The notes under the pieces: model-generated
Databases searched by the model: none
What the model was told of the DNA's origin: nothing
What the model saw: only the letters and a program-made list of their open reading frames with translations
Assembly (NCBI GenBank): GCA_015490795.1
Contig: WFXD01000124.1
Coordinates: 1 to 32,453, forward strand
Source: Gammaproteobacteria bacterium
GTDB taxonomy: Bacteria > Pseudomonadota > Gammaproteobacteria > Chromatiales > Chromatiaceae
DNA: 32,453 bases
Direction of reading: 5' to 3'
Shown here: positions 25,226 through 32,453 of the stretch, in pieces
How the letters are laid out: every line of letters starts with the position of its first letter
How positions within the stretch are numbered: the first letter of the stretch is position 1
Translations under genes and position numbers: made by a program

Positions 25226-25430
25226 TGTCTGTGCCCCTGAAAAATGAGAAGAATATAAGCTAAACTACTAATTTTACAGAAAAAAATACAGGATGAAAGG
25301 GGGCGTTGGCAGCCCGTTTCGCATTGGGCGTTAATGGCCTAGAAATCAATGGCTTAAGTTGTGCTTGCTCCTGTCCGTCAGGTTGTGGAAGAATCAGGGC
25401 ATCTTAAACCTTTATATAGCAGGTCTTGTG

Positions 25431-25958
25431 GTGATCGATTCAGATGGGTATAGACCCAATGTGGGCATTGTACTGTCCAATCATCAGCGCCAGCTTTTCT
25501 GGGGGCGGCGTATCGGCCAGGAGTCGTGGCAGTTTCCCCAGGGGGGGATCAAGGCACACGAAACCCCGGAGCAGGCGATGTTCCGTGAGCTGGAGGAGGA
25601 GGTTGGCCTCTATAAACATCAGGTGGAGGTGATCGGGTATACCGGCGATTGGCTGCGCTATCGCCTGCCGGAGCGCTTTATTCGACATCACTCCAAGCCG
25701 CTTTGTATTGGCCAGAAGCAGGTCTGGTTTCTGCTGCGTTTAAAGTGCAGGGACAAGGATCTCTGCCTTGATCGATCCGCTAAACCAGAGTTCGATGGCT
25801 GGCGCTGGGTAAAATACTGGCACCCGTTGCGTGAAGTGGTCTATTTCAAGCGCCAGGTCTATTCCCAGGCGCTAAAGGAGCTGGCGCCGCTACTCTTTCC
25901 CGATGGCCCGCCGGCGCAGCGCTGCTCAAATTATTTGCGACAGAACTGCCGCACATGA
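25431..25958 (+). CDS. rppH: RNA pyrophosphohydrolase (Nudix)
   Basis: Removes pyrophosphate from the 5' end of triphosphorylated mRNA, opening it to RNase E. The sequence has the RppH signature [26 protein letters not shown] and the Nudix box [23 protein letters not shown] (ending at residue 60), with [19 protein letters not shown] at the C-terminus. I chose the GTG at 25431 because it begins the family N-terminus (M-IDDDGYRPN in E. coli), has AGG seven bases upstream and gives 175 residues against 176 in E. coli. An upstream ATG at 25359 in the same frame would add 24 unrelated residues. It is divergent from the HAD gene across about 205 bases that hold no gene. Confidence 0.95.
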
Positions 25959-26025
25959 TCTCCCGGTGCGGTGGCTGATGTATGAGACGCTTGAAAACAT
26001 GGGGCCGGATGGGTCGGTGTGCCCG

Positions 26026-26043
26026 GGCAGATAGCTATCTGCC
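26026..26043. repeat. Perfect 18-bp palindrome upstream of lexA
   Basis: GGCAGATAGCTATCTGCC equals its own reverse complement over 18 bases. It lies 68 bases after the rppH stop and 38 before the SOS box. There is no loop and no T-run, so a terminator is unlikely; it could be a protein-binding site. Confidence 0.6.
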
Positions 26044-26080
26044 AAGAAAAACCACAGTTTCCCTTCCCTTTATCCAAATG

Positions 26081-26096
26081 CTGTATACACTCACAG
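26081..26096 (+). promoter_or_regulatory. SOS box (LexA operator) of lexA
   Basis: CTGTATACACTCACAG fits CTG-N10-CAG, the gammaproteobacterial LexA operator. It ends 40 bases before the lexA ATG. Negative autoregulation by LexA is expected. A TATACA inside the box could be the -10 element. Confidence 0.9.
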
Positions 26097-26136
26097 CTAA
26101 GCCTTTTGTTTTTTCCGATCTGGAGGCAGTCTTTAT

Positions 26137-26745
26137 ATGGAGCTCACTCCTCGTCAGACAGAGATCCTGGAGCTGATCCGCTCACACATTGCGGATACTG
26201 GATATCCACCCACCCGTGCTGAGATATGCAGGATTATGGGGTTCAAGTCCCCCAATGCGGCAGAGGATCATCTGCGGGCGCTCTCACGCAAAGGGGCCAT
26301 TGAGGTGCTCTCTGGTACTTCCAGAGGTATCCGCATTCTGTTACCGGATGAGCCGGAAGGGTTGCCTGTGGTTGGCAGGGTCAGATCAGGCAGCTCTCTT
26401 CTGGCGGAAGAGAATATTGAGGGGCGTTACTCCATCGACCCCAACAAGTTTCGTCCCAGGCCCCACTACCTGCTGCGCATGCCGGATGGGAGCATGCAGG
26501 ATGCCGGTATTGCAGATGGAGATCTGCTGCTGATACACCGTACAAAAAAATTCCAAAACGAGCAGATCGTTGTTGTCCGGCTGGATGGCGAGGTGCTGGT
26601 GAGACGCATCCACCAGCACGGGCGCTGGAAGCACCGCATCAGGCTGGAGTCGGGCAGTGCCGGTTTTGAGCCGCTTGATGTCGATACGCGGCAACAGATG
26701 CTGGTGGTTGAAGGTCGGGTGGTCGGATTGATCCGTTCCCTGTGA
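26137..26745 (+). CDS. lexA: LexA repressor, atypical catalytic residues
   Basis: SOS repressor with a winged-helix DNA-binding domain (1-70: TPRQTEILELIRSH, PPTRAEICRIMGFKSPNAAEDHL) and an S24 autoprotease domain (75-202). The protein aligns with E. coli LexA without gaps through residue 157. Ser119 is kept (PDGSMQDAGIADGDLL). At position 84-85, where E. coli is cut between Ala and Gly, this protein has Ser-Gly (GRVRSGSSLLA). At position 156, the general-base Lys of E. coli (EVTVKRL), this protein has Arg (EVLVRRI, codon AGA). Arg156 should weaken or shift the pH of self-cleavage. The ATG has GGAGG ten bases upstream and an SOS box 41 bases away, so repressor function looks intact. It is convergent with the Ppx/GppA gene. 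Confidence 0.95.
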   Translation: MELTPRQTEILELIRSHIADTGYPPTRAEICRIMGFKSPNAAEDHLRALSRKGAIEVLSGTSRGIRILLPDEPEGLPVVGRVRSGSSLLAEENIEGRYSIDPNKFRPRPHYLLRMPDGSMQDAGIADGDLLLIHRTKKFQNEQIVVVRLDGEVLVRRIHQHGRWKHRIRLESGSAGFEPLDVDTRQQMLVVEGRVVGLIRSL

Positions 26746-26781: not shown

Positions 26782-28290
26782 TTAGTCGTTATAGTCCAGT
26801 GTAAACCCTGCCTTCTCCAGTATGATCTTCTCTTGCTGTAACTCCATTTGGGTTAGCGGGTGCTTCGTTAACCACTCCGCTGGAAAAGCAAGTTTCAAAT
26901 GGTTCTTTTTTACCGCAAGTCCAATGTCGGGCCTTGCTTTGGTGGCGCGGCCACGGTGCAGCAGGGTGGCCAGGCGCAGCAGGATGCAGAGCCGTTTGGC
27001 GCACCCTCTGTCGATGACGGGCAGAGATTCAAATGCATCCAGTGGGAATCTCCTGCGGTGGCCTCGCACCAATACGGCCAGCAGCATCTGCTCCGGGCGT
27101 GAAAAGCCAGACAGATCAGAGTTTTCAATCAGGTAGGCACCATGCTTGTGAAACTGGTTGTGGGAGATGGTGAGCCCCAACTCATGTATGCGTGCAGCCC
27201 AGCATAAAATCTCCAGCTGGCCATCCTGGGTCAGCTGCCAGGGTTGGCAGGCCTGAGCGAAGAGCCTGCGAGCGGTTCTCTCCACACGTTGAGCATGTTG
27301 CAGATCCAGATGGTAGCGTGCGCAGAGTGAATGGATGGAGCGCCCACGCACATCCTCATGTTGGAAGCGTCCAAGTTTGTCGTAGAGCAGCCCCTCCCTC
27401 AGCGCCTGGTCAGAGATCTGCATCTTCTCCAGGTGCAGGGCCTTGAATATGGCAAGCAGTACGGCAACCCCCCCGGGGAACACAGGCTGGCGCTCCTCGC
27501 TAAGCCCGGCAAGAGCCAGTCTGCCTATATGGCCAATGGCGATTAAGGCTTCGCACAGTCGGTGCAGGGACTCCAGCGTAATACCCTCTGTACTCCAGCC
27601 TGCCCGCTGCACAACCTCGTTTATGCTGCGAATGGTGCCAGAGCTGCCGATGGCTGTTTGCCAGCCCAGTTGGCGGTAGAGCCTGCGGATGGGGCGCAGC
27701 TCCAGCGCCGCCGCCAGCTCGGCTGTCCGCATGGTATCAGCCGTTATGACTTCATCGGGAAAATAGCGCTGGCTCATGCTGACACAGCCCATGTGCAGGC
27801 TCTCACGACGCTTGATATCGAACTGCTTGCCAATAATAAGCTCGGTACTGCCACCCCCAATGTCTACCACCAGCCGCTGGTTGCTGCCTGCGGCAAGGCC
27901 GTGGGCAACGCCAAGATAGATCAGCCGGGCCTCTTCGTGCCCTGCAATGATTTCAATAGGGTGCCCCAGTGCGCTCTCTGCCTGGGTCAGAAAGTCGCCA
28001 GCCTGCTTTGCCTGTCGCAGGGCATTGGTGCCAACTGCACGAACAGTGCCCGGCGGCAGCTCGCGCAGCCGCTGCCCAAAGCGGCCAAGACAGGCCAGTG
28101 CGCGTGTCCGAGCCTCAAGCGAGAGCTGCCTGTTTTCATCCAACCCAGCCCCAAGGCGTACCATCTCTCGAATTCGGTCGATGATCTGGATATCATCTCC
28201 CTCTACCCGGACGACAATCATGTGGAAGCTGTTGGAGCCAAGATCAACGGCAGCAATGGTTTTTGGTCTATTGTTGTCTGTTCTGTTCAT
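26782..28290 (-). CDS. ppx: Exopolyphosphatase / guanosine pentaphosphatase (Ppx/GppA)
   Basis: A 502-residue member of the Ppx/GppA family, which hydrolyses terminal phosphates of polyphosphate or converts pppGpp to ppGpp. The ASKHA-fold motifs are IAAVDLGSNSFHMIVV (phosphate 1), LVVDIGGGSTELIIG (phosphate 2) and AIGSSGTIRSI. FPGGVAVLLAIFKAL and LREGLLYDKLG are typical. The C-terminal helical HD-like domain has CWAARIHELGLTISH and QFHKHGAYLIENSDL. The length matches E. coli Ppx (513) and GppA (494) equally, so the choice between them is open. No ppk is adjacent in the window. The gene starts divergently from the AT-rich sugar cluster. Confidence 0.9.
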   Translation of the reverse strand: MNRTDNNRPKTIAAVDLGSNSFHMIVVRVEGDDIQIIDRIREMVRLGAGLDENRQLSLEARTRALACLGRFGQRLRELPPGTVRAVGTNALRQAKQAGDFLTQAESALGHPIEIIAGHEEARLIYLGVAHGLAAGSNQRLVVDIGGGSTELIIGKQFDIKRRESLHMGCVSMSQRYFPDEVITADTMRTAELAAALELRPIRRLYRQLGWQTAIGSSGTIRSINEVVQRAGWSTEGITLESLHRLCEALIAIGHIGRLALAGLSEERQPVFPGGVAVLLAIFKALHLEKMQISDQALREGLLYDKLGRFQHEDVRGRSIHSLCARYHLDLQHAQRVERTARRLFAQACQPWQLTQDGQLEILCWAARIHELGLTISHNQFHKHGAYLIENSDLSGFSRPEQMLLAVLVRGHRRRFPLDAFESLPVIDRGCAKRLCILLRLATLLHRGRATKARPDIGLAVKKNHLKLAFPAEWLTKHPLTQMELQQEKIILEKAGFTLDYND

Positions 28291-28375
28291 CTGTTGAATA
28301 TGAGCTTATGCCGTATCTCTTCAGCTTAGCATTTTGTAGTGGTGATGTTACCGGGTTGACCTTAAACTTGAGGGT

Positions 28376-28450
28376 ATAAAGTGTTGCAGCCAGTGTGGTG
28401 CAAAGGTTGAGCTGCAAATTCCTGAGATGGAGAGTGGTGGCGACCGATAG
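28376..28450 (+). pseudogene. Possible remnant of a Nudix hydrolase zinc-ribbon start
   Basis: The frame from 28376 reads I-K-C-CSQCGAKVELQIPEMESGGDR and stops at TAG 28448-28450. CSQCG-x-V-x-L-x-IP and a DR ending are what I would expect at the N-terminus of Nudix hydrolases of the NADH-pyrophosphatase zinc-ribbon type (MKFCSQCG...IPEGDDR). The open stretch from 28346 has no ATG, GTG or TTG before the Cys pair, only ATA where a start ATG would be expected, so it cannot be normally translated. It lies at the edge of the AT-rich cluster. Homology is by eye and uncertain. Confidence 0.35.
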
Positions 28451-28484
28451 TGAATTAAACAGCTATTCAGGAATCTGTAAATAG

Positions 28485-29522
28485 ATGCGAGAAATAACAA
28501 TTTGCAATAGAAAAGTGGGTGAAAATCACCCACCTCTGGTTATAGCTGAGTTAGGCATTAATCATGGTGGCTCATTGGGTGTGGCATTCGATATGGTTGA
28601 TGCAGCCGGCAGGGCAGGGGCTGAGGTCATCAAACACCAGACCCATATTGTAGAAGATGAAATGTCCCCGTTGGCTAAAACTATTTGCCCAGGCAATGCT
28701 GGTATTTCCATCTATGAAATCATGGAGAAATGTGCATTAAACGAAAAAGATGAGCGCATGCTCAAAGAGTACATTGAGTCTAAGGGTATGATTTTTATCA
28801 GCACGCCATTTTCCAGGGCAGCTGCTGACAGACTAAACCGCATGAATGTATGTGCATATAAAATCGGCTCTGGAGAGTGCAATAATTATCCACTGCTAGA
28901 GCATATATCAAAATTCGAGAAGCCGATTATACTAAGCACAGGTATGAATACCATCAGTAGCATCAGGAAGGCAACGGATATATTTGACAGGAACAGCATT
29001 CCATACGCATTACTGCATACCACTAATTTATATCCGACACCACCACATCTGGTAAGGCTCGGAGGGATGCAAGAGCTTCAAAAAGTTTTTCCAAATGTTG
29101 TAGTGGGCCTCTCAGATCACACAACATCCAATTTGGCATGTTTTGCAGCAGCAGCCCAAGGCGCATCAATTCTGGAAAGGCACTTTACAGACCGAATGGA
29201 TCGCGATGGGCCAGACATTATTAATTCAATGGATGAAGCATCTCTTAAAGAGCTTATTCATGGAAGTGCTGAAATACATAAAATGCTGGGCGGCACAAAA
29301 TCTGCTGCTCAAGAGGAAAAAGTAACAATGGATTTTGCATTTTCAACTGTTGTTGCAATAAGAGATATCAAGAAAGGCGAGCACCTAAACAGAGATAACA
29401 TTTGGGTAAAAAGGCCAGGTGTTGGAGCAATTAGTGCAGAGCATTTTAATGATCTTATTGGTAAAGTGTCGTCAAAAGACATTGATTGCGGCATGCACCT
29501 CGATTGGCAGGATTTCGCATAA
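28485..29522 (+). CDS. neuB: Nonulosonic acid synthase (NeuB family)
   Basis: Condenses phosphoenolpyruvate with ManNAc or a 2,4-diacetamido-mannose derivative to give sialic or legionaminic acid. The 345-residue protein has the NeuB TIM barrel with [18 protein letters not shown] (Glu22), [14 protein letters not shown] (Lys50), [54 protein letters not shown] and [16 protein letters not shown]. The C-terminal SAF/antifreeze-like domain has [20 protein letters not shown]. These motifs are of the Neisseria NeuB ([12 protein letters not shown]) subgroup rather than the E. coli K1 (VKFQTF) one. The upstream ribosome-binding site is weak (AGGA 12 bases away). NeuC follows after one base. Sialic versus legionaminic acid cannot be decided from this gene alone. 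Confidence 0.93.
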
Positions 29523-29523
29523 C

Positions 29524-30666
29524 ATGAAAAAGAAAATTGTGTTTTTAACCGGTACCCGAGCTGATTTTGGAAAACTGAAATCACTCATCAGTGCATCACA
29601 AGAGCTGGATGGCTATGAAGCACATATTTTTGTGACAGGTATGCATCTAAACCAAAAATACGGGAAGACAATAGATGAGATTTATAAATGTGAATTCAAG
29701 AATGTTTATCCGTTCATAAACCATGACCGGGCAGACTTAATGGACAGGGTTTTATCCACCACAATCAATGGATTTTCACGTTATATAGCAGAGATCAATC
29801 CGGATTTAATCATCGTCCATGGTGATCGTGCCGAAGCGCTTGCGGGAGCAATTGTTGGAAGCCTGAATAATATACTCGTTGCTCATATCGAGGGCGGTGA
29901 AAAATCTGGAACAATAGACGAATTGATTAGACATGCTGTATCAAAAATGTCACATATTCATCTTGTAGCCAATCATGATGCAAAAAAACGGTTGTTGCAA
30001 TTAGGGGAGCGAGGGCAATCCATATTTGTCATTGGCTCTCCTGATCTGGATATAATGGCATCAAACACACTGGCAGATCTGGATTCTGTAACCTCTTACT
30101 ATGATATAACATTCGATAACTATGGCATCCTTCTGTTTCATCCTGTAACAACTGAAATTGACTGCTGGGAAGAGCATACCAGAGAGGTTGTTGATGCTAT
30201 TATTGAGAGTGAACTAAACTATATTGTAATCTATCCAAATAATGATCTTGGGTCTGAAATCATTATAAAAGGCTACAAAAGGTTCCAGAATAATCCTAAA
30301 ATAAAAGTATATCCATCTTTGCGGTTTGAGTACTTTTTAGTTCTTCTTCATAACTCAGATTTTATTATAGGAAACTCTAGTGCAGGCATTCGAGAAGCAC
30401 CATATTACAGCATCCCAACAATTAATATTGGGACGCGTCAGCATGAAAGAGGCAGCGCCCCAACAATAAGGCACTGCAACTATAAAAAAACAGAGATTCT
30501 TGATTTGATTGCCAAAACCAAAAGAGCGAGCCAAGCTGCTGCTAAAGATAGTGCAACCTGTTCCTTTGGGTGCGGCAATAGCACAGAGCTATTTATCAGC
30601 CTTTTAAATAGCGGTGTATTCTGGAATCTCAGAAAACAAAAATTATTTCAGGATCGTGATTATTAA
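29524..30666 (+). CDS. neuC: Hydrolysing UDP-sugar 2-epimerase (NeuC/LegG family)
   Basis: Converts UDP-GlcNAc, or UDP-diacetamido-bacillosamine in the legionaminic acid route, to the free 2-epimer plus UDP, supplying the NeuB substrate. The 380-residue protein starts MKKKIVFLTGTRADFGKL, the NeuC N-terminus. It has VHGDRAEALAGAIVGS, AHIEGGEKSGTIDELIRHAVSKMS, IGNSSAGIREAPYYSIPTINIGTRQ and HERGSAPTIRHC, the GT-B-fold epimerase signatures. The longer frame begins at 29419, inside neuB; the ATG at 29524, one base after the neuB stop, is the family start and is adopted. HisF-like follows directly, its ATG touching this stop. NeuC and LegG cannot be separated here. Confidence 0.92.
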   Translation: MKKKIVFLTGTRADFGKLKSLISASQELDGYEAHIFVTGMHLNQKYGKTIDEIYKCEFKNVYPFINHDRADLMDRVLSTTINGFSRYIAEINPDLIIVHGDRAEALAGAIVGSLNNILVAHIEGGEKSGTIDELIRHAVSKMSHIHLVANHDAKKRLLQLGERGQSIFVIGSPDLDIMASNTLADLDSVTSYYDITFDNYGILLFHPVTTEIDCWEEHTREVVDAIIESELNYIVIYPNNDLGSEIIIKGYKRFQNNPKIKVYPSLRFEYFLVLLHNSDFIIGNSSAGIREAPYYSIPTINIGTRQHERGSAPTIRHCNYKKTEILDLIAKTKRASQAAAKDSATCSFGCGNSTELFISLLNSGVFWNLRKQKLFQDRDY

Positions 30667-31425
30667 ATGTTAAAGAAAAGAGTAGCTGCCCGTATTGATA
30701 TAAAAAATGAATTTGTAATTAAAGGGATTCACCTGGAAGGATTGAGAAAAGTTGGGAATCCTAATGATCTGGCAAAGTTTTATTACGATGAAGGAGTAGA
30801 TGAGATATTTTTTATGGACGCAGTTGCTGCATACTATGATCGTAACAGCCTAGAAGAAATCATATCAAAAGCAGCAAAAAACGTATTTGTTCCAATTACA
30901 GTAGGCGGAGGTATACGTACAATTAATGATATAACCAAGGCGCTTGCCAGTGGTGCTGATAAAGTTGCAATTAATACCCAAGCAGTAAGAACACCTGAAA
31001 TAATGGATGAGGCATCAAGAATATTTGGCTCACAATGCATCGTTGCATCAATTCAAGCAAAAAAAATAGCACATGATAAATGGGAGGTTTGTGTTGATAA
31101 TGGTAGAGAGGCTACCGGCCTTGATGTGATCCAATGGGCAAGAAAACTCGAGCAGCTAGGAGCTGGAGAAATCATGATTACATCAATAGATCAGGAAGGT
31201 ACAAAAAAAGGATATGATACAGCACTGTGCAACCGGATTGCGAACACAATCCATCTGCCAATAATTGCATCTGGTGGTGCTGGGTCACCACAAGATATAA
31301 GCCATTTATGCATTAATGCTGATGTTAGCGCAGTCGCTGTTGCATCAATCCTTCACTACAATTTATCAAGTATTAACGCTATAAAATGTGATTTACGCAG
31401 CAAAGGTTTTAATGTCAGATTATGA
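30667..31425 (+). CDS. HisF-like ammonia-using subunit of a sugar amidotransferase system
   Basis: A 252-residue half of an imidazole glycerol phosphate synthase fold. Most HisF landmarks are present, such as TVGGGIRTINDITKAL, GADKVAINTQAV, GSQCIVASIQAKK, TSIDQEGTKKGYD and PIIASGGAGSPQDI, and Asp11 is kept in ARIDIKN. The second catalytic residue of HisF, Asp130, is Gln here (Gln130 in ASIQAKK). Authentic HisF needs both Asps for cyclisation, so this is not a histidine-pathway HisF. In clusters of this kind, HisF- and HisH-like proteins deliver ammonia to a PseA/WbpG-type enzyme. The stop of neuC abuts its ATG and its own stop overlaps hisH (ATGA). Confidence 0.88.
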   Translation: MLKKRVAARIDIKNEFVIKGIHLEGLRKVGNPNDLAKFYYDEGVDEIFFMDAVAAYYDRNSLEEIISKAAKNVFVPITVGGGIRTINDITKALASGADKVAINTQAVRTPEIMDEASRIFGSQCIVASIQAKKIAHDKWEVCVDNGREATGLDVIQWARKLEQLGAGEIMITSIDQEGTKKGYDTALCNRIANTIHLPIIASGGAGSPQDISHLCINADVSAVAVASILHYNLSSINAIKCDLRSKGFNVRL

Positions 31426-32066
31426 GTGCCCCGCTTATTGCTGTAATTGACTATGGTCTTGGTAATGTTAGAAACATGGTAAACGCCTTAAACAAGGTGG
31501 GAGCACAGCCCATCCTAACTAATTCAAAGAAAAAAATACTAAGTGCCGATGCATTGGTGCTCCCTGGGGTTGGCGCTTTTTCACATGGGATGAAGCAACT
31601 AAAAGAACATGCCCTTATTGATGTTATACATAAATTTGCTTCAACAAATAAACCATTCCTAGGTGTGTGTTTAGGCATGCAGATGATGTTTGATAAAAGC
31701 GATGAGTTTGGTGAGACCAAGGGTCTTGGTTTGATCGCTGGAGATATCAAAATAATTAATATTGATTCTACAAAGAGACAAAGGCTCCCTCATGTTGGGT
31801 GGAACAATATTATTGTGCCTGACAATGCCTTGAGCTGGGAGGGGACAATATTGTCTGGAATACAAAATAACGCAGACATGTATTTTATTCATAGCTATGC
31901 AGCTTCCCCTATTTTGCAAGATGTTCTCCTTGCAGTCACTCAATACCATGACTATATATTTTGCTCGGCTGTTAAGAATGGCAATATCTATGGTGTGCAA
32001 TTTCATCCGGAAAAAAGTGCAACGTCAGGATTGCTTGTGCTAAAAAATTTAATATCCCTAGCATGA
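31422..32066 (+). CDS. HisH-like glutamine amidotransferase subunit
   Basis: A 214-residue class I glutaminase that would release ammonia from glutamine and hand it to the HisF-like partner. The catalytic triad is complete: Cys83 in PFLGVCLGMQ, and His195 and Glu197 in GVQFHPEKS. The PGVGAFSHG loop and YFIHSY are typical of HisH. It overlaps the HisF-like gene by four bases, so the pair is coupled. Given Gln130 in its partner and the NeuB/NeuC neighbours, the ammonia is more likely used for sugar amidination than for histidine. The next gene starts about 10 bases after its stop. Confidence 0.9.
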   Translation: MSAPLIAVIDYGLGNVRNMVNALNKVGAQPILTNSKKKILSADALVLPGVGAFSHGMKQLKEHALIDVIHKFASTNKPFLGVCLGMQMMFDKSDEFGETKGLGLIAGDIKIINIDSTKRQRLPHVGWNNIIVPDNALSWEGTILSGIQNNADMYFIHSYAASPILQDVLLAVTQYHDYIFCSAVKNGNIYGVQFHPEKSATSGLLVLKNLISLA

Positions 32067-32076
32067 GATTATTGTT

Positions 32077-32453
32077 ATGAAAAAAGAAAAGCCGCTATAT
32101 GGGTTGCCAGAAGAGGTTTTATTCTGCAAGAAATGTGTTATTTCTAATCAGCGCCCAAGTTCCACAGTTGAATTTAAAGCAAACCCTGATGACAAAAAAG
32201 AGACTATTGATTTTGATGATTATGGAATCTGCTCTGCGTGTAGATACCATGCAGAGAAGGAACTAAATATAGACTGGAATGACCGTGAAGATAAACTGAA
32301 AAGACTGCTTTCTAAGTTCAGAAAAAATGATGGGAGCTATGATGTTATTGTCCCTGGCAGTGGTGGTAAGGACAGTGCATATACCTCACATATCTTAAAA
32401 TATAAGTATGGTATGAACCCGCTTACAGTAACATGGGCTCCTCATCTCTATAC
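32077..32453 (+). CDS. N-acetyl sugar amidotransferase, PseA/WbpG type (3' end cut by window)
   Basis: The first 125 residues are visible. Two Cys pairs, Cys17/Cys20 in FCKKCVISNQRPSS and Cys52/Cys55 in GICSACRYH, look like metal or cluster ligands. The ATP-pyrophosphatase loop VPGSGGKDSAY (SGGKDS at 95-100) follows. This combination is characteristic of the PseA/WbpG/LegA-like family, which turns an N-acetyl group on a sugar into an acetamidino group with ATP and ammonia. The three genes HisF-like, HisH-like and this one are a known functional set in O-antigen clusters. The ATG at 32077 starts MKKEKPLYGLPEEVLF. The exact sugar substrate cannot be told. Confidence 0.88.
   Translation, partial: MKKEKPLYGLPEEVLFCKKCVISNQRPSSTVEFKANPDDKKETIDFDDYGICSACRYHAEKELNIDWNDREDKLKRLLSKFRKNDGSYDVIVPGSGGKDSAYTSHILKYKYGMNPLTVTWAPHLY

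Follow-up and report, generated by a model that had tools for sequence, protein, structure and literature searches.

A LexA lineage with a decayed peptidase active site and a conserved operator

Self-cleavage of LexA is a textbook regulatory switch, and this locus raises the question of what a LexA protein does once the residues of that switch have changed. The window, by which we mean the whole 32,453-nucleotide stretch analyzed here, comes from genome G000 and encodes such a protein, LexA1, at 26137–26745 of the forward strand. In the first-pass annotation this LexA was noted to carry Ser-Gly at residues 84–85 and Arg at residue 156, and to retain Ser119, the DNA-binding domain and an upstream SOS box. 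These observations were confirmed by alignment to E. coli LexA, in which residues 84/85/118/119/156 read S/G/G/S/R, by a match to PF01726 and by the box at 26081–26096. The Arg156 codon had been placed two bases too far, at 26604–26606. The alignment had also been described as free of gaps; in fact it is offset by one residue near residue 67 and, after approximately residue 163, contains an insertion of three residues, although the key residues are touched by neither. LexA1 clears the curated LexA model TIGR00498 of NCBIfam, scoring 189.8 bits where the cut-off is 110.95, and its features are as follows.

26137..26745, forward strand: lexA1, encoding an E. coli-type LexA of 202 residues with a decayed peptidase active site
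26140..26328, forward strand: LexA winged-helix DNA-binding domain, residues 2–64 (PF01726, 92.3 bits)
26365..26724, forward strand: Peptidase S24 domain, residues 77–196 (PF00717, 75.4 bits)
26374..26397, forward strand: former cleavage loop, residues 80–87, G-R-V-R-S-G-S-S (alignment)
26479..26493, forward strand: nucleophile loop, residues 115–119, M-P-D-G-S (alignment)
26602..26604, forward strand: Arg156 codon AGA, replacing the catalytic Lys (alignment to E. coli LexA)

We surveyed LexA-type ORFs from 38 genomes of relatives, 146 genomes of the larger family group, extra regions and a named genome collection, from which the best 80 of 587 confirmed LexA loci were taken. Altogether 140 loci were entered and 139 gave an ORF at the cut used; the dropped locus (L040) has A-G/S/K at the cleavage site and dyad. 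K156 is present in 132 of the 139 loci and R156 in seven, in a sample that includes those best 80 of 587 collection loci. This was the count of Arg156 among relatives for which the first-pass annotation had called, and all seven carriers belong to one lineage: the window gene, its orthologues in five other members of the genus (G001–G005) and the LexA1 of G017, from a sister genus. A maximum-likelihood tree of 110 rows, 105 of them different, places the seven in a single clade with support of 100/99. Among the 132 non-clade rows, 111 exceed 45% identity to E. coli LexA and are termed ordinary LexA1 here, the 21 LexA2-type or distant rows being excluded. Every one of the 111 ordinary LexA1 carries A84, G85, S119 and K156, again with the best 80 of 587 collection loci in the sample. 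Some LexA rows of the family exactly match those of a Sedimenticola MAG, Thiocapsa sp. KS1 and tubeworm endosymbionts, which places the source organism among gammaproteobacteria related to these.

Comparison within the clade indicates how far the active site has changed. Residues 84/85/117/118/119/156 read S/G/D/G/S/R in G000 and G005, P/G/D/G/S/R in G003 and G002, S/D/D/D/S/R in G001, A/D/D/D/S/R in G004 and T/G/D/P/G/R in G017. The Ser119–Lys156 dyad is broken throughout, with R156 in 7/7 and S119G in one member (G017), and the Ala84-Gly85 cleavage site is kept in 0/7: A84 is changed in six, G85D is found in two (G001 and G004), and the window protein has S-G. Both D117 and V115M occur in all seven. 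We aligned the clade with 51 outgroup rows, which carry V82, A83, A84, G85 and P87 at the cleavage loop and are invariant at A84, G85, G117, S119, T154 and K156. T154 is changed in every clade member, and six outgroup-invariant positions (83, 115, 117, 147, 154 and 156) are changed in all seven. Further changes of the window LexA1 at positions invariant in these 51 ordinary proteins include A83R, P87S, V115M, G117D, A147V and T154L.

We also considered a compensating base within an insertion, HGRWKHR, that follows residue 160. This was rejected since a similar HGRWRHR is present in the LexA of G010, which has K156, and the insertion is therefore no clade-specific replacement.

The departures fall in one half of the protein. 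Positions conserved in at least 95% of the 111 ordinary LexA1 number 67, with 24 in the DNA-binding half and 43 in the peptidase half. Changes in at least four of the seven clade members were found at 0/24 of the former versus 16/43 of the latter. Individual clade proteins depart at 10–19 of the 43 peptidase-half positions and at 0/24 in the DNA-binding half; the corresponding departures in 24 intact family relatives are 0–2 and 0–1. Between pairs of the six genus members, dN/dS (finite values, with a few pairs saturated) is 0.06–0.14 overall, 0–0.07 for residues 1–70 and 0.05–0.21 for residues 71–202. None of the seven clade genes contains an internal stop.

An initial AlphaFold model of LexA1, from 11 sequences, was poor (pLDDT 69.7) and was superseded by a model from the 58-row alignment, with a mean pLDDT of 88.2. 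The predicted C-terminal domain superposes on E. coli LexA with an RMSD of 1.3 Å and a TMt of 0.92. The S24 domain is predicted to have an intact fold around an active site that is not intact. What appears to have been preserved is the fold, dimerization being the simplest reason, and not the cutting site.

Next, we compared the surroundings of lexA1, which in the window include two flanking genes.

25359..25958, forward strand: rppH, upstream of lexA1
26782..28290, reverse strand: ppx/gppA-like gene, convergent and directly 3′ of lexA1, in place of the imuA and imuB-like genes of several outgroup genera

On the upstream side, a ptsP gene stands before lexA1 in G005, G014 and G050, as identified by family model; in G001 and G004 the assignment is by resemblance. 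The window has no ptsP in the interval from rppH to lexA1 (25959–26136), and G002 has a C-terminal remnant only (30.3 bits). The occurrence of ptsP before lexA1 in both clade members and outgroups supports orthology by position. On the downstream side, a convergent ppx/gppA-like gene follows lexA1 in the six genus members, the family model having been applied to the window copy only. Several outgroup genera whose LexA1 is intact have imuA and then an imuB-like gene downstream of lexA1. The imuA product of G045 matches the ImuA model NF033429 with 189.8 bits (cut-off 150). The ImuB-like label is less firm, resting on gene position and on PF00817 (IMS), which the 217-residue piece used matches at 25.9 bits (cut-off 23.2); the piece has no NCBIfam match.

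Among the 21 genomes searched, ImuA adjoins lexA1 in eight of ten relatives with an intact LexA1 (G045, G010, G007, G016, G014, G018, G050 and G020). It is absent from G040 and G058, which also have an intact LexA1, and from G011, G012 and G015, and in G008, where LexA2 is the sole LexA found, it lies about 90 kb from that gene. The seven clade genomes gave no ImuA, their sole matches being their RecA proteins at 1e-4 to 1e-3. ImuB-like proteins were found in 6 of 16 genomes (G045, G016, G007, G050, G014 and G020), and none was found in the seven clade genomes or in G010 (69% complete), G040 and G058. The arrangement of imuA and imuB beside lexA is seen in relatives; it was found in no clade genome (0/7). 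Loss of this cassette alone is insufficient to explain decay, because G040 and G058 have no ImuA or ImuB-like protein and keep an intact LexA1.

At its far end the window changes in composition, with 39.8% GC at 28301–32453 versus 57.2% at 1–28300. The products of this end include NeuC (409.6 bits) and HisH (213.6 bits), both over their cut-offs, a NeuB-like protein (370.9 bits, just under cut-off) and a WbuZ/HisF-like protein (under cut-off). It is probably a horizontally acquired surface-sugar locus.

The promoter of lexA1 contains the following candidate site.

26081..26096, no strand assigned: SOS box CTGTATACACTCACAG, of CTGT-N8-ACAG type, identical in six species of the genus

This box differs by one base from that upstream of E. 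coli lexA, CTGTATATACTCACAG (L083), and the corresponding box of G017 is CTGTATACACTAACAG. In the promoter alignment of the six species, 16/16 box columns are invariant versus 44/114 of the others (Fisher p 1.2e-6), and with G017 included the figures are 15/16 versus 28/114. By this conservation, lexA1 has kept a candidate SOS-type operator in its own promoter. The conservation could be partly that of promoter sequence, because the box includes a −10-like TATA stretch.

The picture at the other genes is different. In none of the clade genomes (0/7) do the 200–260 bases upstream of recA contain a CTGT-N8-ACAG or a GAAC-type box. Among the relatives, the recA upstream region of G040 has the CTGT box CTGTATGAATGTACAG, which would maintain selection for cleavage there, those of G007, G008, G011, G015 and G045 have GAAC-N7-GAAC, and those of G012, G014, G020, G050 and G058 have neither. 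Upstream of recN and uvrA (250 bases), neither box was found in 12/12 genomes tested; intact-LexA1 relatives are among these, and therefore the two genes are not discriminating. The small size of the regulon predates the clade, since intact-LexA1 relatives have no recN or uvrA boxes and G014, G050, G058 and G020 have no recA box. At the SOS genes tested (recA, recN and uvrA), we found no operator for LexA1.

The first-pass annotation had also suggested looking for a second lexA, and one is present in G000 (G000:C3:61548-62135). Its product, LexA2, scores 156.6 bits against TIGR00498, shares 31% identity with LexA1 and has A-G/S/K intact. LexA2 is found in five of the seven clade genomes: G000, G001 (which has two), G002, G003 and G005. 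No LexA other than LexA1 was found in G004 (94% complete) or G017 (95% complete); recA is present in both, and they may have no LexA-controlled SOS response. We examined 16 LexA2-type genes, picked from the LexA2 side of the tree with the more distant L028–L030 left out. GTTC-N7-GTTC or GAAC-N7-GAAC lies upstream of 16/16 of these, and CTGT-N8-ACAG upstream of 0/16. GTTCN7GTTC is listed as the Caulobacter SOS box in a table of a review (PMC9578287). A GAAC-N7-GAAC box also lies directly upstream of the start of an integron integrase gene in G000 (C76; L290 343-1377; TIGR02249, 468.9 bits). From its sequence, this integron is probably under LexA2 control.

We propose that the LexA1 of this clade is most likely a fixed natural non-cleavable (Ind-) LexA, a relic repressor of a lost imuA–imuB cassette that persists as a constant autorepressor. 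The observations behind this proposal are the sequence changes, their occurrence in a single clade, the conserved operator, purifying selection, the lack of any ImuA or ImuB-like match and the presence of LexA2; from them we infer the absence of cleavage, dimerization, DNA binding and the order of events. LexA1 would fold and dimerize like LexA and bind the CTGT-N8-ACAG operator in its own promoter. Self-cutting would be abolished by the combined changes in both loops (cleavage and nucleophile) and at the Lys general base. Unable to cut itself, LexA1 would therefore stay on its operator whatever the DNA damage; it would repress its own gene at all times and, probably, a small number of targets constitutively. 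The ancestral LexA1 would have repressed a lexA-imuA-imuB(-dnaE2) mutagenesis cassette. Loss of the cassette would have removed selection for inducibility, and the peptidase site would then have decayed with repression still selected. Surviving damage induction in the genus would go via LexA2, with its intact Ser-Lys dyad and GTTC-N7-GTTC operator.

Across the clade taken together, LexA1 is very unlikely to cleave itself, given D117, the altered T154, the loop changes and the lack of a nucleophile in G017. The impairment of self-cleavage anticipated in the first-pass annotation is thus strongly supported at the level of sequence. The accompanying prediction, that the threshold of the SOS response as a whole is raised, finds no support: the clade recA, recN and uvrA upstream regions have no CTGT-N8-ACAG box, and an intact LexA2 is present in 5/7. 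LexA1 is a LexA by descent and domain content, and we do not term it an SOS repressor because, as far as sequence tells, it fails the defining features of self-cleavage. At least one LexA1 target besides lexA1 has probably been missed, since a repressor of itself only should hardly stay under purifying selection.

A further reading is compatible with the non-cleavable relic and goes beyond it, namely that LexA1 has been repurposed to regulate new targets independently of damage, perhaps in answer to a new input such as a modification or ligand, as proposed for the LexA of Synechocystis (PMC7567884). We regard this as possible, if doubtful on balance. It would account for purifying selection on both halves of a protein whose own promoter is yet the sole clear target. 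CTGT-N8-ACAG is over-represented in G000, with 84 occurrences versus 16 for the reversed control, perhaps as an effect of codon usage. Matches on either strand to a stricter pattern, CTGTNTAN5ACAG, number 6–21 in each genome of the genus and 6 in G017, versus 1–5 in five relatives; the reversed controls give 0–3 in the clade genomes and 1–2 in the five relatives. G000 and G005 also have in common a CTGT-N8-ACAG site approximately 65–70 bases upstream of flgG, between flgF and flgG (C78:14611 and C123:8014; L213 2001-2016 and L228 2001-2016, respectively). The flgG product of G000 matches TIGR02488 with 374.1 bits, and the site is a possible LexA1 target or a chance occurrence.

The positions of the strict sites tell against new targets. 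In G000, 14/16 of those outside lexA1 lie inside ORFs of at least 60 residues, and we rejected an expanded LexA1 regulon; the other two lie between genes, upstream of one for an AAA-type ATPase and of flgG. An automatic count placed 56/63 strict sites within ORFs (in G001, G002, G005, part of G017 and five relatives), with some lexA promoters miscounted as inside. Re-listing these sites by looser rules, in G001, G002, G005, the five relatives and all but one site of G017, showed no shared target besides lexA1. Only lexA1's own site sequence, with one change in G017, recurs in all seven clade lists.

One rival, close to the prediction of the first-pass annotation, is a slow or high-pH LexA protease, in which Arg156 would serve as a weak general base and LexA1 would go on repressing the SOS response at a raised threshold. 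E. coli LexA with K156R cleaves slowly at best, and at high pH, and Ser119 and Gly85 are both retained in G000, G005, G003 and G002. Because both are kept in the window protein, residual alkaline cleavage activity is possible there. Across the clade, this reading is improbable: D117 and a changed T154 in 7/7, A84P in two members, G85D in two and S119G in one describe a site that is not maintained, and the three clade promoters tested (recA, recN and uvrA) carry no box. With both the active site and the cleavage loop decayed clade-wide, complete loss is likelier than a slow protease.

Alternatively, LexA1 could be cut or degraded upon damage by another protease, either an S24 enzyme acting in trans or Clp/Lon, and induction would survive. 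Candidates for the former are LexA2 and a further weak S24-like match in G000 (C86, 29.7 bits). We consider this decidedly improbable, as the cleavage loop is itself degraded (A83K/R, A84P and G85D), which would hamper cleavage in trans as well, and no other LexA was found in G004 or G017. A dying gene or an assembly error, to which the relaxed peptidase half might point, is scarcely credible and was set aside: the sequencing error that the first-pass annotation had named as a possible refutation is very unlikely because R156 and D117 recur in six further assemblies, so that seven agree, dN/dS is approximately 0.1, the operator is kept and none of the seven genes has an internal stop.

We compared the non-cleavable relic with known LexA systems. 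The nearest natural case that we found is the LexA of Synechocystis sp. PCC 6803, which has Gly-Gly at the cleavage site and Asp in place of Ser119, and for which a role as SOS switch is thus doubted; it is reported to regulate non-SOS genes (PMC7567884, PMC3091678). It too is a natural LexA with a changed dyad and cleavage site. LexA1 resembles non-cleavable LexA of this kind in that, judged by alignment, these parts are changed and the DNA-binding domain is kept. The changes themselves differ, however, with Lys156 replaced by Arg, Gly117 replaced by Asp and a site of S-G, P-G, S-D, A-D or T-G in the clade. Unlike the cyanobacterial protein, the clade LexA1 is E. coli-type, has a conserved E. 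coli-type operator and is often accompanied by a second LexA.

LexA with G85D is non-cleavable and is known as lexA3, with an Ind- phenotype. G85D is also the mutation in structure 1jhf, according to the title of that entry. The likeness of the clade to the E. coli Ind- mutants lies in G85D in G001 and G004 and in R156 in 7/7. In contrast to these laboratory mutants, the clade is a fixed natural lineage with many more active-site positions changed. In E. coli, the single change K156R has served to give an uncleavable, SOS-deficient LexA (PMC5760743).

In P. putida, LexA2 directly controls an operon of the lexA2-imuA-imuB-imuC/dnaE2 type (PMC3901139). The relatives resemble this in having an orthologous lexA1 followed by imuA and an imuB-like gene, whereas the clade has no ImuA or ImuB-like match and its lexA1 stands alone against ppx. 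Leptospira interrogans likewise has two LexA proteins in one genome; both are depleted after UV, and its LexA2 retains Ser and Lys (PMC3789691). Genomes with two LexA proteins and lexA-imuABC operons are thus already known (PMC3789691, PMC3901139). In the literature searched, which left out most subscription papers, we found no proteobacterial LexA that naturally has no Lys156.

In this clade, a lineage would have fixed the Ind- state of the laboratory, often beside a second LexA with a different operator. We further suggest, tentatively and as a little short of an even chance, that an E. coli-type LexA turned once, clade-wide, into a damage-blind regulator strongly selected for non-SOS targets or inputs, and that LexA-controlled SOS has gone in G004 and G017 though recA and a LexA-family repressor persist. 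A LexA annotation that passes TIGR00498 does not equate to an inducible SOS response. The LexA1 clade would thus provide a natural test of how a switch is dismantled, of which part goes first and of what use remains for a repressor that can no longer be switched.
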